Assembly: GCA_947624865.1 (NCBI GenBank)
Contig: CANQMH010000013.1
Location: 1-34,154, forward strand
DNA: 34,154 bases
Direction: 5' to 3'
Source: an uncultured Clostridia bacterium
Lineage (GTDB): Bacteria; Bacillota; Clostridia; Oscillospirales; Acutalibacteraceae
Position numbers and translations under genes: made by a program. Shown piece by piece: positions 7,985 through 26,463 of the stretch (position 1 is its first letter; each line of letters opens with the position of its first letter). The notes under the pieces are model-generated. The model saw nothing but the letters and a program-made list of their open reading frames with translations. It was not told the DNA's origin and searched no databases.

Positions 7985-8058
7985 GCGGATGTAGTTTAGT
8001 GGTAGAACTTCAGCCTTCCAAGCTGATCGTGTGGGTTCGATTCCCATCATCCGCTCCA
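7985..8058 (+). tRNA. tRNA-Gly (anticodon UCC)
   Basis: A full cloverleaf can be drawn: acceptor arms GCGGATG and CATCCGC, a D-arm around AGTTTAGTGGTAGAACT, anticodon stem TCAGC/GCTGA with loop CTTCCAA, T-arm GTGGGTTCGATTCCCAT, discriminator T and an encoded CCA. The anticodon is TCC, which reads GGA. The gene sits at the switch from core chromosome genes to AT-rich mobile-element content, so its 3' half is the likely attachment site. No second copy of the tRNA 3' end was seen in this window. Confidence 0.96.
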
Positions 8059-8070
8059 TTCAGTAAAGTT

Positions 8071-8098
8071 ATTTAAGCAGCCGAAAGGCTGTTTAAAT
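8071..8098 (+). repeat. GAAA-loop hairpin after the tRNA
   Basis: The arms ATTTAAGCAGCC and GGCTGTTTAAAT form a 12-pair stem (one G-T pair) closed by a GAAA tetraloop. No T-run follows, so it may stabilise or process the tRNA 3' flank rather than terminate transcription. Confidence 0.6.
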
Positions 8099-8194
8099 AG
8101 CTCGGCTGTAATTTAATTATACAATTTAATAAATGATTTAACAAAGAATTCGGGGAGTTTGTCTGATGGAAATTAATTTTTTGGAGGACTAACT

Positions 8195-8443
8195 ATGTCT
8201 AAAAAACGGCCCGAATTTCAATCGTATTATCGTAACGAAATTAAAAGGCTTAAGAAATTGAGCCGGTATTACGCTGAACACAATAAAGATAATTCAATGG
8301 TGGATTATCAAATTAAAATTTATGAGCAACAGTTGTATGGTCATAAATTTAAGAAGTTTAAGTGTAAAAGTACTGATAATACGTATAATAGGTTAAACAT
8401 TTACTATCCCTCTTATAAAAGGGGTAAGAAAATAATAAAGTAG
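8195..8443 (+). CDS. small basic protein of unknown function
   Basis: An 82 aa Lys/Tyr-rich protein, predicted very basic, with no motif I recognise. An SD sequence, GGAGGAC, sits six bases before the ATG, which is the main reason to accept it. The first half (residues 8-50) looks helical with alternating charged and aromatic residues; the C-terminal third is basic and probably disordered, which would suit nucleic-acid binding, but that is inference. It is the first ORF after the tRNA and is followed directly by a region of many hairpins, whose first part may overlap its 3' end. Confidence 0.55.
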   Translation: MSKKRPEFQSYYRNEIKRLKKLSRYYAEHNKDNSMVDYQIKIYEQQLYGHKFKKFKCKSTDNTYNRLNIYYPSYKRGKKIIK

Positions 8444-8940
8444 TGTTATTGTACCTTTCCCTATTCAACGGAATCTTGTTGTCTAAGCAACAAGCATTCT
8501 CCGCCCCATTATCATCCCGACGATAGGGGTAATCCGCAGATATAGTTACAAACAAGAAATTATTATTTTCACACTTAATAATTTCTTGCAGAGTGGATAA
8601 AGCTCTTAGCAATCAGGTGCTATCAACAGTGTGTATTGGCTCGCTTTCTAGGTGTAATATGAGGAGTAATGCGAAGCTCTACCTGAGTGGCTGGTTGTAT
8701 GAGATACATTTATCCTATTAAATTGTATTTGTAAAAGAAATAAGACCTGCACCACGGGCAAAATCGGTACAGGTCTTGACAAAGGGTATAATAAGCGTTT
8801 AAAATATAACGCATATCAAGCTTCACAAGTTCTGAGTATCTGAGTTACTCGGGGCGCATGCCTGTTTGTTGTTGGTAGCAACGAACGGGCTGTGGGGCTT
8901 ATTTAATTTTACGATATTATTATAGAATAATAGTTAAATT
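8444..8940 (+). ncRNA. candidate large structured RNA
   Basis: About 500 bases without a convincing ORF on either strand but packed with stems: 8475-8494 (CTTGTTG/CAACAAG), 8504-8529 (CCCC..TATC/GATA..GGGG), 8553-8588 (perfect 13 pairs, 10-base loop) enclosed by ATCCGC/GTGGAT (8532-8537 and 8593-8598), 8607-8622, 8742-8777 (11 of 12 pairs), 8860-8890 (12 pairs with three G-T) and an AT-rich stem at 8915-8932. GC-rich joining segments between the stems look less AT-biased than the flanks. The position beside a tRNA in a mobile element and the size recall large ornate RNAs such as ROOL or GOLLD; I cannot confirm membership. It could also be an attachment or regulatory region. Confidence 0.42.
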
Positions 8941-9020
8941 TTGTCAATATGTTTTTAAAATTTTATTTTTAATTATTTTATAATATGCTTCGTAACAGAA
9001 AATATGATATATAAAAGTAC

Positions 9021-9043
9021 AAGTGTCCCTCCGAGGGACACTT
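9021..9043 (+). repeat. dispersed palindrome, copy 1
   Basis: Arms AAGTGTCCC and GGGACACTT around TCCGA. It is the first copy in the window, just upstream of the DUF5710-like gene. Confidence 0.95.
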
Positions 9044-10700: not shown

Positions 10701-10917
10701 ATAATAAAATATGATAAAATATATAATAATATTGGCTATAAAAACAATTTAATACTTATTTTATATGCAGATTAATATTGCTTATTAAAATTTATATAGG
10801 AGGTGTTTTATTGTAATGCTAATTCTTACTTAAAATTGGGATTAGTATATATTTTTATAATAATAGGCAGTATTTGATTAAACGATAAAAAATATTTTTT
10901 TGAAAATGAGGTGTAAT

Positions 10918-13347
10918 ATGAAAAATTATAAAAAATCAATTAAAGTCGTATTTTCAATTTGTTTGGCTCTATGTATCTTGTCAAACTGTATGTTAATTGC
11001 TTACTCGAAAACAGAATCAACAAATTCAGAGAATACACAAATTATAGGGGATAAGCTCTATGATATTTTGAACAACAGCGCAGATAATGAAAAAATTCCT
11101 GTAAGCATATGGTATAAAGATATTGATCAGGTTAATGTGGATATTATGACAAAAGAAGAAACGGGTTATTCAATTGACTCTCTTTCTGTTAATATGGAGA
11201 ATGATATTCAAAGTATTGATAATGCCGAGCAATTGAAAGACTATTTAAGTAAAACCGCCAATCAGAGAAAAATAGAGAAAACGAGAACGGATAAGTATAT
11301 TAACAAGAGAAGAGAGCTGTCAAGAAAACAATATGTAAAAGCAGTTGACAAATTTTTAAATGAAGTATCAATTGCCGATGATGATATAATTTTTAAGAGC
11401 CAATATGCTCCAATGGTTATTGCAAATATGTCTGTTAATGACATTAAAAAAATTTCAGAAAATAATCTTGTTCAAAGTATAGACTATCATGAAGAACCTA
11501 AGTATGAGGAATGCACTAAAGAAAGTATTGCAAGCAATACCGGATATAATCAACTAGTTTCAGACTTTGGCCTTACAGGAGCAGGAATAAAAGTGGGAAT
11601 TGTTGAAAACGGTTATCCCACAGTTGACCCTGAACTTGATTTAACTAAAATTCATAAAGTTGGAAATATAGGAACATCCGATCATGCGGCCAATACATCA
11701 AAAATACTTATGGGCTCAGAAAGTGGATTTGCTAAAAATATTGATTTATATTCTACGAATACTGTATACAGTAATATAGAAGCAATGTTGTCTAATGGAG
11801 TACAACTAATTAATGTTAGCTTAAGCTGGACACTCACAGAAGATAATACAACTGAAAGCTATGCTGAAAAAGAACAAGACAAATGGTTTAATCATATTGT
11901 TTCGTATCATAATGTAACGGTTGTTGCATCGGCCGGAAACGACGGTCAGGGTTCTGTAGATAATAATGGTAATGTTTACAGACGTGTTGCTTCTCCTGCA
12001 ATGGCACATAATGTAATTGCAGTAGGAGCCTACGATGATAAGAATACAGCAGATAAAAGCGATGATGTTATTTATCCATATAGCAGCTACAAAAATTCAA
12101 ATGGCTCAGTTCGCGGGCTTGAAAAACCTGATGTTGTTATGTCGGCAAATATAGGGGGAAACGGTACAAGCTCATCTGCACCGGTTTTAACTGCTATGCT
12201 TGCTCTTATGTTTGAATTGAAACCATCAGTTGCGGCTTTTCCACAAGCTGTTAAGGCGATTGTTTTGGCATCATGCAACAGAAAAATTGCATCCTACGAA
12301 AATGATAATGAATTGAATAGTGGTCTGACAGATAAGCAGGGTGCAGGTGCGCCTGACGTAATGTTGATGGCAGATATTCTGTGTCAGGGTACATATGGTA
12401 TTGGAACAATTGAGGGAGATGAAACGGAAGATTCAATGCGTTTTGTACAACTCCCTTATGGTGCATCTAATATGAACGTCAGTCTTGCATGGTTAAAAGA
12501 AAACACAGGTGATTGTGCTGGAAATTTATATAGTAAAAGTAATGTTGATTTGGACTTGTCACTTTTAAGAGATAAAACTTTAATTAAGACATCTAATAAT
12601 TCATATTCATCTACTGAGTTAATTACCTCTGCTTTAGCCGGAAGCGGCAATTATGAAATGAAAGTAAAAAAATATACTAAAGATTATGATGAAACAGTAA
12701 GATATGGATATGCATATTGTTCTGATACATCCTACTCTAAAAAAGTTTCACAGGAAGGTATTTATTATTTAAAAGATTACCAGGGAAATTACTTGACTTT
12801 TGATAGCAATGACAACAGTTTAAAATTACAGCCGTTTACAGGAGAATTAAATCAGAAATGGTTATTTAAAAAATATAAAAAAGAGCTTGGTGTTTATCCT
12901 TGTGCCGGAGAATCTGATAAAGGCATTGGAATAGGTGATGCTGTAGGCGGAACACCAGTTAACAACACTGTACTTAAGGATGAAATAATGGGCGTCGGTA
13001 TTTATGGATTTGAAGAGAGCGGACGTCAAGATGGAAAGACATACTTTTATTCAAGAAGCAGTGGAAAATTTTTTAGTGCAAGTGGCAGTTCACTTGTATT
13101 AGTTATGGGTTCTAATATTAATAATCTTCCTCAAAATCAACTATGGAATCTTGAAAAAGTCGGATACCATTTAGGCGATGTTAATTTGGATGGAAAAATT
13201 AGTTCAGATGATATATCAATGATTCAAAATTATTTGGCTCATTTTTCAACATTTAATAATGTTCAAAAATACTTAGCAGATTTTGACGAAGATGGATCGG
13301 TTACTATTCGTGACGTGACTGTAATGCAGATTAAATTTGGATTATAA
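10918..13347 (+). CDS. secreted subtilisin-like (S8) protease with dockerin
   Basis: An 809 aa exported serine protease-like protein. It has a signal peptide (residues 1-31, VVFSICLALCILSNCMLIAYS), a propeptide-like region to about 200, an S8 domain from about 200 to 480, a ricin-type beta-trefoil-like segment from about 610, and a C-terminal type I dockerin from about 751 with two calcium loops (DVNLDGKISSDD and DFDEDGSVTIRD). Catalytic histidine (DHAANT), oxyanion asparagine (ASAGNDG) and serine (GTSSSAP) are present, but the usual Asp block reads VGIVENGY, with Glu where Asp is normal. The ATG at 10918 follows GAGGTG. The dockerin predicts docking to a cohesin scaffold on the cell surface. 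It sits alone between palindromes 3 and 4. Confidence 0.88.
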   Translation: MKNYKKSIKVVFSICLALCILSNCMLIAYSKTESTNSENTQIIGDKLYDILNNSADNEKIPVSIWYKDIDQVNVDIMTKEETGYSIDSLSVNMENDIQSIDNAEQLKDYLSKTANQRKIEKTRTDKYINKRRELSRKQYVKAVDKFLNEVSIADDDIIFKSQYAPMVIANMSVNDIKKISENNLVQSIDYHEEPKYEECTKESIASNTGYNQLVSDFGLTGAGIKVGIVENGYPTVDPELDLTKIHKVGNIGTSDHAANTSKILMGSESGFAKNIDLYSTNTVYSNIEAMLSNGVQLINVSLSWTLTEDNTTESYAEKEQDKWFNHIVSYHNVTVVASAGNDGQGSVDNNGNVYRRVASPAMAHNVIAVGAYDDKNTADKSDDVIYPYSSYKNSNGSVRGLEKPDVVMSANIGGNGTSSSAPVLTAMLALMFELKPSVAAFPQAVKAIVLASCNRKIASYENDNELNSGLTDKQGAGAPDVMLMADILCQGTYGIGTIEGDETEDSMRFVQLPYGASNMNVSLAWLKENTGDCAGNLYSKSNVDLDLSLLRDKTLIKTSNNSYSSTELITSALAGSGNYEMKVKKYTKDYDETVRYGYAYCSDTSYSKKVSQEGIYYLKDYQGNYLTFDSNDNSLKLQPFTGELNQKWLFKKYKKELGVYPCAGESDKGIGIGDAVGGTPVNNTVLKDEIMGVGIYGFEESGRQDGKTYFYSRSSGKFFSASGSSLVLVMGSNINNLPQNQLWNLEKVGYHLGDVNLDGKISSDDISMIQNYLAHFSTFNNVQKYLADFDEDGSVTIRDVTVMQIKFGL

Positions 13348-13476: not shown

Positions 13477-13740
13477 TTACCGTTCATAATGAGACCACAG
13501 GCTGATTATTTTTATTTGTTTTGTTTCCTCGTAAACCTGATAAATAAGTCTGTGTTTAGAATTAATTCTGCGTGAGTAAGCTCCTTTTAAATCACCAACT
13601 AACTTTTCATATGTTGGAGGTATCTGATAAGGGTTTTCTTTTATAAGAGCTATTAGATTTTTGGCAGTTTTATCAAGATGAGCTGCTTTTAATTTTGGAA
13701 TATCTTTTTGAGCAGTTTTTGTATATAGAATTTGATACAT
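13477..13740 (-). CDS. yoeB: Txe/YoeB-family toxin, ribosome-dependent mRNA interferase
   Basis: An 87 aa RelE-superfamily toxin expected to cut mRNA in the ribosomal A site until neutralised by its antitoxin. The C-terminal pattern (GAYSRRINSKHRLIYQVYEE and IISLWSHYER) is typical of YoeB, including the conserved arginines and the terminal HYE region; the last residues are HYER. It starts immediately after the antitoxin stop, the normal antitoxin-first order. Palindrome 5 lies six bases past its stop. A RelE name is less likely because of the HYE ending. Confidence 0.92.
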   Translation of the reverse strand: MYQILYTKTAQKDIPKLKAAHLDKTAKNLIALIKENPYQIPPTYEKLVGDLKGAYSRRINSKHRLIYQVYEETKQIKIISLWSHYER

Positions 13741-13989
13741 TTACCATTCTACCTCATCTTCTGAAACACACTCTGAAAGAGGAGTATTAAGACCGTCGAC
13801 AATTTTTTCTTTCATTTCAGGAATAGAAGTAAGGTTAAGAGTTTCCATTAATCCTCTGTAATCTTCTTCACTGATAACTATTGCGTTGCCGTCCTTTGTG
13901 CTTATATTTACAGGTTCATTAAATTTTACGGTTTGCTCTAATACTTTATAAATATCTTTTCTGAAATTAGTAATGTTTGTATTATACAT
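13741..13989 (-). CDS. yefM: YefM/Phd-family antitoxin
   Basis: An 82 aa antitoxin. The N-terminal DNA-binding part (NFRKDIYKVLEQTVKFNEPVN, then ISTKDGNAIVISEEDYRGLMETL) is characteristic of Phd/YefM, and the acidic C-terminal tail (LSECVSEDEVEW) should wrap and block the toxin. The ATG at 13989 is chosen over the track's 14067 because GAGGTGG precedes it and the domain begins there. The next codon after its stop is the toxin ATG. A palindromic operator lies exactly inside its promoter, consistent with autoregulation by the antitoxin-toxin complex. Confidence 0.92.
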   Translation of the reverse strand: MYNTNITNFRKDIYKVLEQTVKFNEPVNISTKDGNAIVISEEDYRGLMETLNLTSIPEMKEKIVDGLNTPLSECVSEDEVEW

Positions 13990-14007
13990 ATGATCCACCT
14001 CAATAAT

Positions 14008-14036
14008 ATTATAGCGTACATATTTATGTACGTCAA
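14008..14036 (-). promoter_or_regulatory. yefM-yoeB promoter with embedded operator
   Basis: On the minus strand TTGACG and TATAAT are 17 bases apart. The spacer is almost filled by the palindrome at 14015-14032 with arms CGTACAT and ATGTACG. YefM-YoeB operators in other bacteria contain TGTACA-type hexamers, so this fits autorepression. Confidence 0.8.
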
Positions 14037-14071
14037 TATTATTTTCAAAATTTTTAAATATATTCAATTGT

Positions 14072-14106: not shown

Positions 14107-14676
14107 TTAATAATTAATGTAATAATCACGTTTTAAATTGCAGTCTAAATAAGTTATATTTTCAGACCACATTCCGCTCTTTGCTTTTTCTGCCTCTATC
14201 TGGGCGTATGTGAATACATCTGCATATTTTGTATTTGGTTTATATTCCTTTGCAACCGCATATCCATTAACAACAAGGTCATAATTTACCATGTTATCAT
14301 CAAGATATACATATGCAAGTAATCGTCCATAGGGGTCATATTTATCTTTATCATATTCAAGCGATATTTTTTTATTTGACAAAAGGCCCTTTGTATAATC
14401 AGAAGCAGTTTTGCCAAACTCACAATTTTTACTTTCATCAGAATGTACACTTTCCGGTGTATCTATTCCTATCAAACGAACTTTTGTGTTTTCACCGTCT
14501 AAGTCAATTATGATTGTGTCACCGTCAACTACTCTGACTACATCATATTTAACTACATCGCTTGAAGGTGCTGTGATAGAGTTTGCAGATATATTTTCAA
14601 GGTGAATATCATCACAGCCCGTTATGATAAATATAATTATAATAATGGAAGTTAATAGTGTAAATAATTTTTTCAT
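14107..14676 (-). CDS. lipoprotein thermonuclease (SNase-like)
   Basis: A 189 aa secreted nuclease of the staphylococcal nuclease family that should cut single- and double-stranded DNA or RNA outside the cell. The N-terminal hydrophobic segment ends in a lipobox-like FIITGC, so it is probably lipid-anchored to the outer face of the membrane. SNase residues are visible: VVDGDTI, VRLIGIDTPE (metal Asp, catalytic Arg and Glu) and DPYGRLLAYVY (second catalytic Arg). GAGGAG precedes the ATG by eight bases. It sits alone between palindromes 6 and 7. On a mobile element it could scavenge DNA or limit competing DNA entry; both are inference. Confidence 0.9.
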   Translation of the reverse strand: MKKLFTLLTSIIIIIFIITGCDDIHLENISANSITAPSSDVVKYDVVRVVDGDTIIIDLDGENTKVRLIGIDTPESVHSDESKNCEFGKTASDYTKGLLSNKKISLEYDKDKYDPYGRLLAYVYLDDNMVNYDLVVNGYAVAKEYKPNTKYADVFTYAQIEAEKAKSGMWSENITYLDCNLKRDYYINY

Positions 14677-21811: not shown

Positions 21812-24800
21812 TTAATAATCATAGCTTTGTTCGTAATCACTGATGGCATGACCTGCATATATTTTTTGAATTTTTTCTTTATGCAGAAGTTTTGTATCAG
21901 AAACATATCTGTTTTTTGCGGCAGCCATAGTTTCAGTATTTATCATTCTGCCAAGGTGACAGGCCGTTGTTGCAATAGACATAACTGATAACTGCCTTAT
22001 CTGCTGTGCTTCATCAATTTTTTGCTGTGCTTTCTGATTGCCAAGCTCAACAGATTTTTTATACCAGAAAATAGCCTTGTCAATGTCTCGCTCGACACCT
22101 AATCCGTAATGGTAGAAAGTACCTATACGCATAGCCAAGGAGCTGTCTGTAGGATTTTTAGAAAATTCCGTTTGATATGCAGGCAGGGCAGAGGAGAAGT
22201 ATTTGTTTGACAGCATATCATTTTTAAATCCGTAATTTTCAGATTTATAAATATATCCGAGCTGATAAGCGGCATCAGGATTGCCTTGCTCAGCTGATTT
22301 TTCAAACCAGGCAACAGATTGAGAAATGTCCTGTACTGTTCCCTGAGCATTGAAGTACATCTGACCTATCCGGTAAGCGGTGAAGTCATCCGGATTTTCC
22401 TGATAATCTGAAATGTATTGCTGTAAGGCATTGCCGTAACAGATGTTTGCTTTTTCAGTATCGAGCACACCGTACCCAGTATCAGAATAAATTTGTCCCA
22501 GTCTGTACCAGGCATGAGAGATATTCTTATCCGCAGCTTGTTCAAAATATTTTATTGCCTGCGGTATGTCGTTATTTTCAAGACTGATATTGCCTAAATA
22601 ATAACAAGCATAAGGATTATTGTTTTCAGCAGACATTTTAAAAAATTCTTCTGCTCTACGTAAATTTTGTGGTACGTCTGTACCTGAGTAATAAATCTTT
22701 CCAAGCTGATAAGCAGCGTTAATATTTTCATTTACTAATGCTTTTTCAAACCACTTAACAGCTTTATCAATATCTTTTTCTGTGCCTTGACCTGAAAGAA
22801 ACATCTTGCCTAAACGGTATTCAGTGGTTGAATTTTTTTGCTCTGTTTCAGAGTTAAGGTAAGAATTAAGTGCAAACGAAAAATAATCATTAGCTTTATT
22901 AGTATCAAAAAAGTCTGAATCAGGCTGAGAGTGAATAATACCGAGCTGATAGGCTGCATCGGGATTGCCCTGCTCGGCTGACTTTTCAAACCAGGCAATA
23001 GACTGAGGAATGTCCTGTACAGTTCCCTGAGCATTGAAGTACATCTGACCTATGCGGTAAGCGATGAAGTCATCCGGGTTTTCCTGATAGTCTGAAATGT
23101 ATTGCTGTAAGGCATTGCCGTAACAAACGTTTGCTTTTTCGGCATCGAGCACACCATACTCAGTATCAGAATAAATTTGTCCCAGTCTGTACCAGGCATG
23201 AGAGATATTATTATCCGCAGCTTGTTCAAAATATTTTATTGCCTGAGGTATGTCGCTATTTTCAAGACTGATATTGCCTAATTTGTAATTAGCATACGGA
23301 TTGCCAAGTTCAGAAGAAAGTTGATAAAAAAGAAATGCCTTTTCGGGGTTTTTCGTAACTTCTGTTCCTTCATCATATAAAACGGCAAGTTTATAGGCTG
23401 CCGAAGCATTGCCGTTTGAAGTCGATTTACTAAACCAATGCACAGCCTTGTCAATATTTTTATCTACGCCTAATCCGTTAAGATAAATTAAGCCGATTCG
23501 ATATTCTGCCGTGGCATTGCTGTTTTCTTCCTCTGCTTTTTCATAATCTGATAAAGCTGCAGCGTAATATTTATTTGACTTAGCAATATCCGATAGGGCG
23601 TATTTCTCAGAGGAATATATGTAACCTAACTGATAAGCTGCATCGGGATTGCCTTGCTCGGCTGACTTTTCAAACCATTTTACAGCTTCATCTATGTTTA
23701 TATTCGTTCCCTTACCGTTGAGATACATACTTGCGATACGAATTTCAGTGAAAGCGTCATGACTGTTTTGTTCCTGTTGTAACAGTTCGTCAAGCGCTTT
23801 TTGATATAAAGAATAAATTGTGTCGCTGGACTTTTGAAATGTTTCAGGGTTGTTTTCGTAAAGTTCCGCAAGGTCATAGTTTGCAAGCGTAACTCTGTTT
23901 ATAGCTTTTAAAAGGTATTTTTCGGCATTTATTATGTCTGCGTTTACACCCTCGCCTTTAATATACATTTTTGCAATACGGTAGTCGGCATAACTGTCAT
24001 TTGCCTCACTTGCCTTTTGGTAATATGACAATGCTTCTGAATAATCCTGATTGAATCCTAAACCGTAATAATATTGATTGCCTATATAGTAATTTGCGTG
24101 AGCATAACCGTTTTCTGCTGCAAGTAAAAAGGTCTGGTATGATTTAAAATAATCCTGTTCAACACCTTCGCCTTTAAGGTACATACGACCCATTAAATAC
24201 TCTTTATAAGCATCTGATTTTGGTACTTTGGTTTGATAACGCAGATCATTAAATCCATTGTTAAGGTCATCAAAAAAGGTGCTGTTTTTTATTTCATCCC
24301 AAAATTTATAGAAGGCCTTGTTACAATAGTAATGTCCAAGTTCATTATCTATATCTATACCGTCGGCACCGTAAAGGTAAAGTTGACCAAGTCTATAAGA
24401 AGCCATACTGTCCTGAAACTGGTCTGCTGCAATGCCATACCACATAACAGCCTGTGTAATATCTTTTTCTATACCTTTGCCATAATTATAACAATCGGCA
24501 AGGTTTCGGCATATTTCACCGTTTCGTGAAGAAAGATCTGTTGCAAGAATAGAAAGAGACTTAAAGTTTTTGATTGATTCGTCATCCGATTCAAAAATTA
24601 AACGTGAGCCAAATATTTCCCGTAATTCAGGAGTGTCCGGCTCAGGCGAATAGAAAATATGTTCCGGGAATTGTTTCATATATTTTTGTACCGGGTCATA
24701 GTGTGATAAATTGTTATTTCTGCTTTCTTTCGGGGCAGGCGAGGGGAGGACATTATTTGTACTTGAATTATTTTTAATTTTAGGAACATATGTATCTATT

Positions 24801-26452
24801 AAATTATCAATCGTGTAAACGGATGAATCTTTAGTAGTATTGATATTCATAGATTTCTCATTTACTTTAATGTTATCTCTGTTTTCTTTCGGGGCAGGCG
24901 AGGGAATAACTTTATCTGCATTTAAAGTGTTTTTAATGTCAGAAGCATATGTATGTGTTGAATCGTCAATTGTGCTGGCTGCAGAGGTATTGCATACAAC
25001 ATCAATTGGCTGTTCAAGATTTATTATGCCGTCCCTAATATTTTCAGCCTGCTTCAGAATACTGTTCTTTATTTTTGTAAAATCTGAAACCGTCTCAATT
25101 GACGGAATATCAGGCAGTTTATCCTTAACATAAAATTTATGAAGATTGTATTTTTCTTTAGCCCAATTATTATATAGGTCTGATAATTGCTTGTTGTTAT
25201 TTACGAGCGATTTTTCAATATCATTTACAAGTTCTTTTACCTTTTTAGGCGACCAGCCATATTCAATTTTTCCATGAGTGGGGAGATTGTCGGCTAAATT
25301 AAGCATTTTGTTAATTAAATCATTAAGGTTTTTATCCGAGATATATTTATTTGGATTTTTCAGCAATTCATCAAGTTTTTCTTCTGCTTGTTCTTTAAGC
25401 TCATCTCGGTATAAGTCCTTATCTATAAGGATTTCGTATCTTTCATCGTTAAAAATTTGTGTTACAAACGTTCTTTTTAATAGCGTTATACTTTTATTTG
25501 CTTTTTCACTATAAAAACCTTCATTTGGGTCAATTGAAAAAACAAATAAATGTATATGCGGATGGTGACCGGTATTGTGCATTGCAGCATACCATCTTAA
25601 ATTTTCGGGTTTAATATTATGAGCTTTTGCAATTGTATCTATATTTGCCATAATTAAGTCACGCCAAGGTTTTTGAGAATCATATCCGAGTGCGCCGGCA
25701 TCTTCACGTCTTAATGAAAGTATATGTGTCCAGATGTTTCCCTTGTGTTTTGATACTTCTTCCTTTGCTTCTTCTAAATCTACATTTTCAAATGATGAGA
25801 ACAAACCGTGTTCTCCGACTCTGACAGCACCTGGACGTTTGGCGGCGTATTCAACAAGGTTTGAAACTTGACCTTGTTTCATTAAAAGTTCTTCCGATAA
25901 TCGAGAAATCAGCTCCGAAGCATTTTGTACTGTCGGAGCTGATTCATAATCATCGTATTCAAGAGGAATATCCTCATTGTCTTTATAATTAATTTGTTTT
26001 AACAAACTGTTAATAGTATTAATTTGTTTTTCTGTTGCCGGGCGTTTGGTGTTATCATAAAAATTAATGGTTTCAATTCCTTTTTGTGCGGCCGACTGCG
26101 CAGATTCGTCAAGCGAGTTGTCTGCCAATATTTCCTCCGTCATTCGATTGATTAATTTTAATGCGTTGTTTCGTGAAGAATCAGATTTATAATCATCCAT
26201 TTCGGAAAAATTAATAGATATATTATTATCTTCAAATGCTTTTATCAATTCATTTATACTTTCTTTTTGTCTGCTTGTAGCAGAAAGTTCAACTGATTCA
26301 TTTATAAGGTTATAGTCAACAGATTCACGCGTGGCACAGTATTCAACAAGTGCTTTAACATGATCTTCACTAAGAGCGTAATCACTAATCGGTTCACCTG
26401 GCTTTGCAACATGAAAAAATCTTGACTGAAGAATAAAACGTGCGCCCTGCAT
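21812..26452 (-). CDS. MobP3-like relaxase with a long SEL1-repeat tail
   Basis: A 1546 aa protein. The N-terminal part carries the relaxase signature HNTGHHPHIHLFVFS near residue 292, with WTHILSLRREDAGALG and KPWRDLI before it, as in MobP3/MobL-type relaxases that nick oriT and lead the strand into the recipient. A linker with two PSPAPKE units follows (about 500-620). From about residue 645 to the end there are roughly 20 SEL1/TPR-like repeats (A-YRLGQIY, WFEKSAEQGNPDAAYQLG), normally protein-protein interaction surfaces. A block of about 112 residues is duplicated almost exactly, 684 bases apart. The ATG at 26452 with AGGAG eight bases upstream is preferred over GTG at 26461. Confidence 0.88.
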   Translation of the reverse strand: MQGARFILQSRFFHVAKPGEPISDYALSEDHVKALVEYCATRESVDYNLINESVELSATSRQKESINELIKAFEDNNISINFSEMDDYKSDSSRNNALKLINRMTEEILADNSLDESAQSAAQKGIETINFYDNTKRPATEKQINTINSLLKQINYKDNEDIPLEYDDYESAPTVQNASELISRLSEELLMKQGQVSNLVEYAAKRPGAVRVGEHGLFSSFENVDLEEAKEEVSKHKGNIWTHILSLRREDAGALGYDSQKPWRDLIMANIDTIAKAHNIKPENLRWYAAMHNTGHHPHIHLFVFSIDPNEGFYSEKANKSITLLKRTFVTQIFNDERYEILIDKDLYRDELKEQAEEKLDELLKNPNKYISDKNLNDLINKMLNLADNLPTHGKIEYGWSPKKVKELVNDIEKSLVNNNKQLSDLYNNWAKEKYNLHKFYVKDKLPDIPSIETVSDFTKIKNSILKQAENIRDGIINLEQPIDVVCNTSAASTIDDSTHTYASDIKNTLNADKVIPSPAPKENRDNIKVNEKSMNINTTKDSSVYTIDNLIDTYVPKIKNNSSTNNVLPSPAPKESRNNNLSHYDPVQKYMKQFPEHIFYSPEPDTPELREIFGSRLIFESDDESIKNFKSLSILATDLSSRNGEICRNLADCYNYGKGIEKDITQAVMWYGIAADQFQDSMASYRLGQLYLYGADGIDIDNELGHYYCNKAFYKFWDEIKNSTFFDDLNNGFNDLRYQTKVPKSDAYKEYLMGRMYLKGEGVEQDYFKSYQTFLLAAENGYAHANYYIGNQYYYGLGFNQDYSEALSYYQKASEANDSYADYRIAKMYIKGEGVNADIINAEKYLLKAINRVTLANYDLAELYENNPETFQKSSDTIYSLYQKALDELLQQEQNSHDAFTEIRIASMYLNGKGTNINIDEAVKWFEKSAEQGNPDAAYQLGYIYSSEKYALSDIAKSNKYYAAALSDYEKAEEENSNATAEYRIGLIYLNGLGVDKNIDKAVHWFSKSTSNGNASAAYKLAVLYDEGTEVTKNPEKAFLFYQLSSELGNPYANYKLGNISLENSDIPQAIKYFEQAADNNISHAWYRLGQIYSDTEYGVLDAEKANVCYGNALQQYISDYQENPDDFIAYRIGQMYFNAQGTVQDIPQSIAWFEKSAEQGNPDAAYQLGIIHSQPDSDFFDTNKANDYFSFALNSYLNSETEQKNSTTEYRLGKMFLSGQGTEKDIDKAVKWFEKALVNENINAAYQLGKIYYSGTDVPQNLRRAEEFFKMSAENNNPYACYYLGNISLENNDIPQAIKYFEQAADKNISHAWYRLGQIYSDTGYGVLDTEKANICYGNALQQYISDYQENPDDFTAYRIGQMYFNAQGTVQDISQSVAWFEKSAEQGNPDAAYQLGYIYKSENYGFKNDMLSNKYFSSALPAYQTEFSKNPTDSSLAMRIGTFYHYGLGVERDIDKAIFWYKKSVELGNQKAQQKIDEAQQIRQLSVMSIATTACHLGRMINTETMAAAKNRYVSDTKLLHKEKIQKIYAGHAISDYEQSYDY
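22250..23285 (-). repeat. near-identical duplication inside the relaxase tail, offset 684 bases
   Basis: Sequence from about 22250 to 22600 recurs at about 22935 to 23285 with few changes, for example GAGCATTGAAGTACATCTGA in both. Each copy encodes the same set of SEL1 repeats (SHAWYRLGQIYSDT, QENPDDF). It is young enough to recombine. Confidence 0.85.
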
Positions 26453-26463
26453 TACATTCACTC

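Follow-up and report, generated by a model that had tools for sequence, protein, structure and literature searches.

The locus described here raises the question of what a long, hairpin-rich stretch is doing near a tRNA gene in a mobile element, and whether it constitutes one large RNA at all. It lies at positions 8444-8940 of the window, by which we mean the whole analysed stretch of 34,154 nucleotides from an uncultured Clostridia bacterium, and a preliminary description had tentatively likened it to the ROOL and GOLLD RNAs. The region is the tRNA-side (attL) end of an integrative conjugative element (ICE) and consists of two parts, a variable 5′ module and a conserved 3′ module, rather than one large RNA, and its 3′ boundary is better placed at 8947, the −35 box of the predicted minus-strand promoter (Table 1).

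Table 1 Features at the tRNA-side end of the ICE, in window coordinates.
Feature	Position	Strand	Basis
tRNA-Gly(TCC), attachment-site tRNA, attL side	7985-8058	+	ARAGORN; Rfam tRNA, 72.1 bits
ICE body, starting right after the tRNA	8059-34154		Conjugation genes; core common to other tRNA-borne elements
Post-tRNA hairpin, element-borne	8061-8108	+	Common to the window, G492, G029, G002 and 3/3 G471 copies
82-aa ORF between the post-tRNA hairpin and the RNA region	8195-8443	+	ORF list, homologue comparison
5′ module, structured, variable between elements	8444-8730		Folding, compensatory changes
Conserved module of the predicted convergent RNA pair	8731-8947	both	Folding, wobble signatures
Predicted terminator T: hairpin 8777-8742, then ATTTCTTTTAC at 8741-8731	8731-8777	-	Wobble pairs on minus only; stability
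Predicted plus promoter, TTGACA (8776-8781) N18 TAAAAT (8800-8805)	8776-8805	+	Consensus match
Palindrome GCGTTTAAAATATAACGC about the −10 box	8795-8812		Conserved, paired changes
Predicted (+) antisense RNA, ~100 nt	8812-8911	+	Covariation, strand stability; start placed from the promoter
Parts of the (+) RNA: P1, P2, P3, U-rich end	8820-8827/8891-8898, 8832-8852, 8860-8890, 8899-8911	+	
P3 loop UUGG (YUNR)	8872-8875	+	Window sequence
Predicted minus promoter, TTGACA (8947-8942) N17 TATAAT (8924-8919)	8919-8947	-	12/12 consensus
Predicted (-) leader, ~170-180 nt, from near 8912 to T	8733-8912	-	Promoter and terminator

The tRNA-side end of an ICE

The plus strand of 8444-8940 folds with a minimum free energy of −158.1 kcal/mol (z = −6.87, none of 100 dinucleotide shuffles being as low) and the minus strand with −118.5 kcal/mol (z = −2.94, likewise from dinucleotide shuffles), and no ORF inside the region matches Pfam, in agreement with the many strong hairpins and the lack of a credible gene described earlier. 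The adjacency to tRNA-Gly was described less exactly, as the tRNA does lie upstream but at a distance of 386 bp, with a hairpin and an 82-aa ORF in between. The hairpin directly follows the CCA, and near-identical ones stand behind tRNA-Gly, tRNA-Arg and tRNA-Met in other copies. Apart from the window, only genome G492, whose copy is 92% identical, has the ORF intact; it is no general part of the locus, and no useful relatives of its protein were found.

The mobile-element setting is borne out by the downstream genes for a coupling protein, a MobL relaxase, a VirB4-like ATPase and TrbL, which occupy the minus strand of the window from about 19 kb; parts of this conjugation core are common to G029, G424, G490, G397, G042 and G405. 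The right end of the window's element falls beyond the contig, on which no att repeat for that end is found. Six elements are flanked by att repeats of 43-94 bp that enclose 21-57 kb: a 52-bp 3′ end of tRNA-Val is repeated 37.5 kb away in G042, an 87-bp repeat containing the whole tRNA-Gln is present in the complete chromosome of G397, and repeats of 60, 94, 92 and 43 bp occur in G589, G122, G266 and G248b, respectively, which belong to other genera. In each of the six the feature occupies the tRNA-restoring end, and integrases are present in G042, G397 and G122.

Conserved copies were supplied by blastn within the genus, and a covariance model was then run over samples of the genus and the family, yielding 17 loci from 161 genus genomes, 14 of which have at least one, and 22 further loci in 18 other family genomes; the relatives of the window module number 38, in 31 other genomes that span 11 genera of one family. 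In 35 of the 39 loci a same-strand tRNA stands no more than 1 kb to the 5′ side, with 11 tRNA kinds represented, against a background of 2.7% for random places on the same long contigs, and the orientation of the module is identical at every locus having a tRNA. Each of the 13 full copies other than that of the window follows a tRNA, which is the one for Arg, Met, Val, Gln, Lys or Gly, and a single genome, G471, carries three near-identical copies, behind tRNA-Gly, tRNA-Arg and tRNA-Met. A copy behind tRNA-Arg is also present on contig FMUV01000056 of the cultured Ruminococcus bromii YE282. The window and G492 are 98% identical over 2.5 kb from the tRNA end onward despite their different tRNAs, and the unit therefore moves. 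An order-level sample of 394 genomes gave matches in the window's own genome and one family genome only, and the module found no match in phage and plasmid records by distant blastn or in viral contigs by pattern search.

Five outlying loci (L082, L084, L098, L101 and L103) are without some of the module parts, and the G471 copy behind tRNA-Met (L037) has lost P2 and the lower portion of the 5′ strand of P3, about 30 nt, a natural deletion in a genome that also has two intact copies. Blastn matches to the 3′ end only (L007-L012) were rejected as homologues: they have no tRNA and are alike only across the AT-rich, promoter-like end, and were taken as chance promoter likeness. A short inverted repeat, AGTGTCCCTCCGAGGGACACT, is located at 9021-9043 of the window and also occurs in L003, L005 and others, at several places in related genomes.

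Two predicted convergent RNAs

The two strands of the conserved module carry opposite structural signatures. In an alignment of 13 sequences (MAFFT without structure, the structure itself being drawn from the window sequence), helices P1-P3 read on the plus strand contain 50 G.U and 3 C.A pairs, whereas T and the palindrome, read on the same strand, contain 0 G.U and 7 C.A, so that T and the palindrome keep their pairing on the minus strand. Folding energies agree, T being more stable on the minus strand and P1-P3 on the plus strand in 38 of 39 loci each. Such signatures require at least two convergent RNAs, and the single RNA of about 500 nt first proposed gives way to a variable 5′ module joined to a separate, conserved two-strand module. 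The perfect promoter at 8947 had also suggested a minus-strand RNA over the full length of the stretch, an idea that is ruled out by the G.U counts of P1-P3. The covariation by which the preliminary description had suggested checking its RNA is present in the 3′ part: 97.5% of the alignment cells are paired, as compared to 87.1 in shuffles and 33-41% in slid controls, and 17 pairs are changed on both sides versus 7.4, with none of 500 shuffles as good. P3 is paired in 156 of 156 cells, and as many as five pair types occur at a single position.

Promoter-like sequences are found at corresponding places across the loci. A plus-strand pattern TTGACA-N17/18-TANAAT between T and P1 has at least 10 of 12 consensus letters in 77% of loci versus 2% of shuffles, and a minus-strand pattern TTGNNN-N17-TATAAT just past the U-rich end of P1 reaches the same level in 74% versus 10%. 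The predicted starts overlap by approximately 92-118 nt in most loci, the predicted (-) leader overlapping the whole (+) RNA, and the T hairpin with its U-run, which follows the overlap on the minus strand, appears at the level of sequence to be the intrinsic terminator of the target RNA. The P3 loops often read UUGG or CUGG, which fit the YUNR motif known from sense and antisense RNAs that pair fast (PMC6562991), or else exactly the complementary letters. The module very probably encodes two convergent RNAs, and the palindrome might possibly be an operator or a hairpin of the minus RNA. In the G424, G492, L087 and L078 loci the P3 loop is exactly or almost the reverse complement of the usual one, UUGCUACCAA for UUGGUAGCAA, as though the loop had exchanged its sense and antisense roles.

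Scans of both strands with all 4227 Rfam families, at the gathering thresholds and at E≤10, found no family in the window besides tRNA above chance scores, ROOL (RF03087) and GOLLD included, and in the homologues only tRNAs, one T-box and chance matches; neither RF00236 nor another countertranscript family gave a match at E≤10. The membership in ROOL or GOLLD that had been guessed consequently falls away, their models scoring at chance level on the RNA region of the window, and ROOL is found in 0 of 161 genus genomes, although this count is weak as a control search gave no signal either. A single ornate RNA of this type on the plus strand of 8444-8940 would account for the strong plus-strand fold of the whole stretch and for a tRNA neighbourhood such as that of ROOL and GOLLD, which are structured RNAs near tRNAs (PMC12286853). 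It is nevertheless very unlikely, since no Rfam model matches, promoter and terminator elements lie inside the stretch, T folds on the other strand, and the 5′ and 3′ parts are conserved separately. Like ROOL and GOLLD, the present module is structured, non-coding and close to tRNAs in mobile elements; unlike them, it has two predicted convergent short RNAs, not one of 500-800 nt, and is borne by ICEs. A further hallmark of ROOL and GOLLD is assembly into RNA-only homo-oligomers. The module is a predicted RNA family new to Rfam, of a known regulatory kind, and a structured stretch next to a tRNA in a mobile element is not necessarily ROOL or GOLLD.

Proposed attenuation and readthrough in the excised circle

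In the plasmid pT181, an upstream segment is complementary to the 5′ arm of the terminator. In the present module a segment of the leader, located in the complement of P2 and termed here the pre-emptor, can pair with the 5′ arm of T. Outside the R. bromii group, six lineages keep the pairing of pre-emptor and T although the letters differ, the pre-emptor lying near leader-core position 50-53 in every one of these groups that was displayed. In the group of seven loci, the duplex energies with the own arm, the arms of other lineages and shuffled arms are −19.0, −11.0 and −11.1 kcal/mol, and in the other five groups −18.7/−11.9/−10.9, −13.9/−11.4/−9.1, −14.6/−9.7/−9.7, −14.8/−10.4/−11.3 and −18.6/−10.5/−13.0 kcal/mol; four of the six groups comprise one or two loci each, the shuffle fractions lie between 0.000 and 0.10, and the effect is clear in the larger groups. 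In the R. bromii group, which is the window's clade, a 22-nt arm gives no pairing excess (−9.5 vs −9.9 kcal/mol) and a 28-nt arm a group mean that is suggestive (−17.1 vs −14.2 kcal/mol), the window copy itself having no excess with the 28-nt arm (p = 0.94). In equilibrium folding the mean probability of T is 0.76 for free leaders and 0.96 for blocked ones; as blocking competitors raises T trivially, the switch, if real, must be kinetic, and equilibrium folding of the free leader alone does not show one. Overall, we consider it probable that the module is an antisense-controlled transcription attenuator.

From these features we infer transcription, antisense binding and attenuation in the cell, as well as readthrough after excision and a role of the 5′ module. 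The minus promoter would fire towards the element end, and its leader would either continue or stop at T. The (+) RNA, fully complementary to the leader, would bind it via exposed hairpin loops and sequester the pre-emptor, which would otherwise block T, so that T forms and transcription ends. When the (+) RNA is scarce, the minus transcript would pass T and cross the 5′ module and the attachment site. As long as the element is integrated, such readthrough would reach only the tRNA. After excision, in the circle, it would enter the other end of the ICE, with its mostly co-oriented integrase, ArdC, ParA/ParB and transfer genes.

The (+) RNA might instead act in trans on other messengers, with the (-) RNA as a sponge or antisense brake and no regulated readthrough. 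The separate predicted promoter and terminator of each RNA would suit this, and the variable P3 stems could mean changing target specificity; we consider it improbable, however, as it gives the complementarity of pre-emptor and T no role and leaves the constant placement at the element end facing attP unexplained.

The gene order of the complete elements is largely consistent with readthrough under the attenuator model. Five of the six are mostly coded on the minus strand, G248b being mostly plus. In the elements scanned, minus-strand genes at the right end are integrase-ArdC-ParA-ParB in G042, ParA-ParB in G589 and ArdC-ParA-ParB in G397, where the integrase is opposite. The module of G122 has an integrase gene, likewise minus-strand, immediately beyond it. 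The first gene met across attP varies between elements, which counts against the reading, as do the opposed integrase of G397 and the plus-strand coding of G248b. The reading as a whole, an ICE attL end with an antisense-controlled attenuator that gates readthrough into ICE genes after excision, appears on balance somewhat likely, and for the coupling of readthrough to excision we regard the case as about evenly balanced.

The same right-end genes also bear on a plasmid-like alternative, where the (-) transcript would be a pre-primer or replication control of the circle and the (+) RNA an RNAI-like inhibitor following ColE1 logic. The layout, with a short structured antisense RNA that covers the start of a longer transcript, would fit it, and ParA/ParB at the circle's opposite end, together with an HTH_36/DnaD-domain protein in the window, suggest plasmid-like upkeep. 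Attenuation is nonetheless the better fit to the intrinsic terminator T and the co-varying pre-emptor, the HTH_36/DnaD gene is some 9 kb off and not downstream of the leader when integrated, and no origin was identified, which together render replication control an unlikely explanation.

The closest parallels to the attenuator reading are found in plasmids and in Tn916. The overlap of leader and counter-transcript in pCF10 is about 220 bp, and that of the present module is shorter. As in the prgQ/prgX system of pCF10 (Anti-Q, IRS1), the module combines a predicted promoter, a terminator some distance downstream and a counter-transcript overlap, but no prgX-like regulator or pheromone peptide was identified, and its transfer genes would be reached only across attP, whereas in pCF10 readthrough of the counter-transcript attenuator gives the conjugation genes (PMC5515443). 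The attenuators of pT181 and pIP501 likewise employ a short structured antisense RNA that overlaps the opposite leader, loop-loop recognition, and a terminator that forms on binding (PMC3753616). The short antisense RNA, overlapping leader and intrinsic terminator are matched in our module, as far as its sequence tells, in common with those plasmids (Rfam ctRNA_pT181, RF00236), but the module resides at an ICE end by a tRNA, faces the attachment site rather than a rep gene, and its predicted (+) RNA is a three-helix junction with no Rfam match. In Tn916, once the element has become circular, transcription from Porf7, which lies close to one end, runs over the joint, and an insulating terminator T1 is present (PMC11658703). 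The module's predicted promoter similarly reads outward from near one end to co-oriented genes at the other, while its control by a predicted antisense RNA rather than a processive cis antiterminator, and the integration at tRNA 3′ ends, set it apart.

A more far-reaching version, which we put forward as speculation and hold to be rather doubtful, is a widespread ICE switch that senses the integrated versus the excised state, with the attenuator backed by the 5′ module as a processive antiterminator. The outward transcript would be silent in the chromosome, whereas in the circle it would activate genes for partition, anti-restriction and transfer, and the variable P3 stems would determine which ICEs silence each other, an RNA-based incompatibility or immunity. 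To our knowledge, the silencing of gut Clostridia ICEs in the chromosome and their activation after excision are poorly known. A conserved antisense attenuator at the attachment end, in 11 sampled genera and at 11 tRNA kinds, would be a testable answer on ICE silencing. It would also serve as a marker with which to locate ICE ends in metagenomes, and would offer naturally diverged RNA attenuators as a set.

The 5′ module and other parts of the elements

The 5′ module is conserved separately from the 3′ part and differs by element type. Over 35 loci its mean z is −3.2 and −3.0 on the two strands, and compensatory changes are seen inside groups of 5′ modules, but z-scores and wobble counts assign it no strand, and no small ORF or leader peptide on its minus strand is kept beyond close relatives. 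One alternative holds that the 5′ module and the palindromes are DNA sites of an attachment arm, such as integrase or excisionase binding sites or a single-strand origin, kept as inverted repeats in the DNA. The equal folding on both strands agrees with this, as does the location between tRNA and element with variation by element type, yet a recurring motif of the arm type was not demonstrated. The proposal also has no explanation for why P1-P3 and T differ in their wobble signatures, so that it could at best cover the 5′ module; we hold it to be quite improbable. In Tn916, the cis-acting processive antiterminator RNA canT lies between the promoter and the end (PMC11658703). The 5′ module takes the same place, a positional analogy only, and is a candidate for either a canT-like antiterminator or an att-arm region.

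Several further features of the elements were observed. The MobL relaxase of the window (21812-26461; 1549 aa) is fused to at least ten Sel1/TPR repeats. The ICE cargo includes a subtilase (Peptidase_S8) with a C-terminal dockerin domain at 10900-13344, possibly a cellulosome- or amylosome-type component borne by a mobile element, and at 13477-14067 and 14107-14676 a YoeB/Phd toxin-antitoxin pair and a staphylococcal-nuclease-like protein are located within the ICE. In G397 (L053:1866-12200), three tRNA-Gln stand in tandem in the order tRNA, ICE, tRNA, filamentous-phage-like element with its own integrase, tRNA, and the repeats there include the full tRNA gene plus, upstream of it, the 3′ end of tRNA-Lys.
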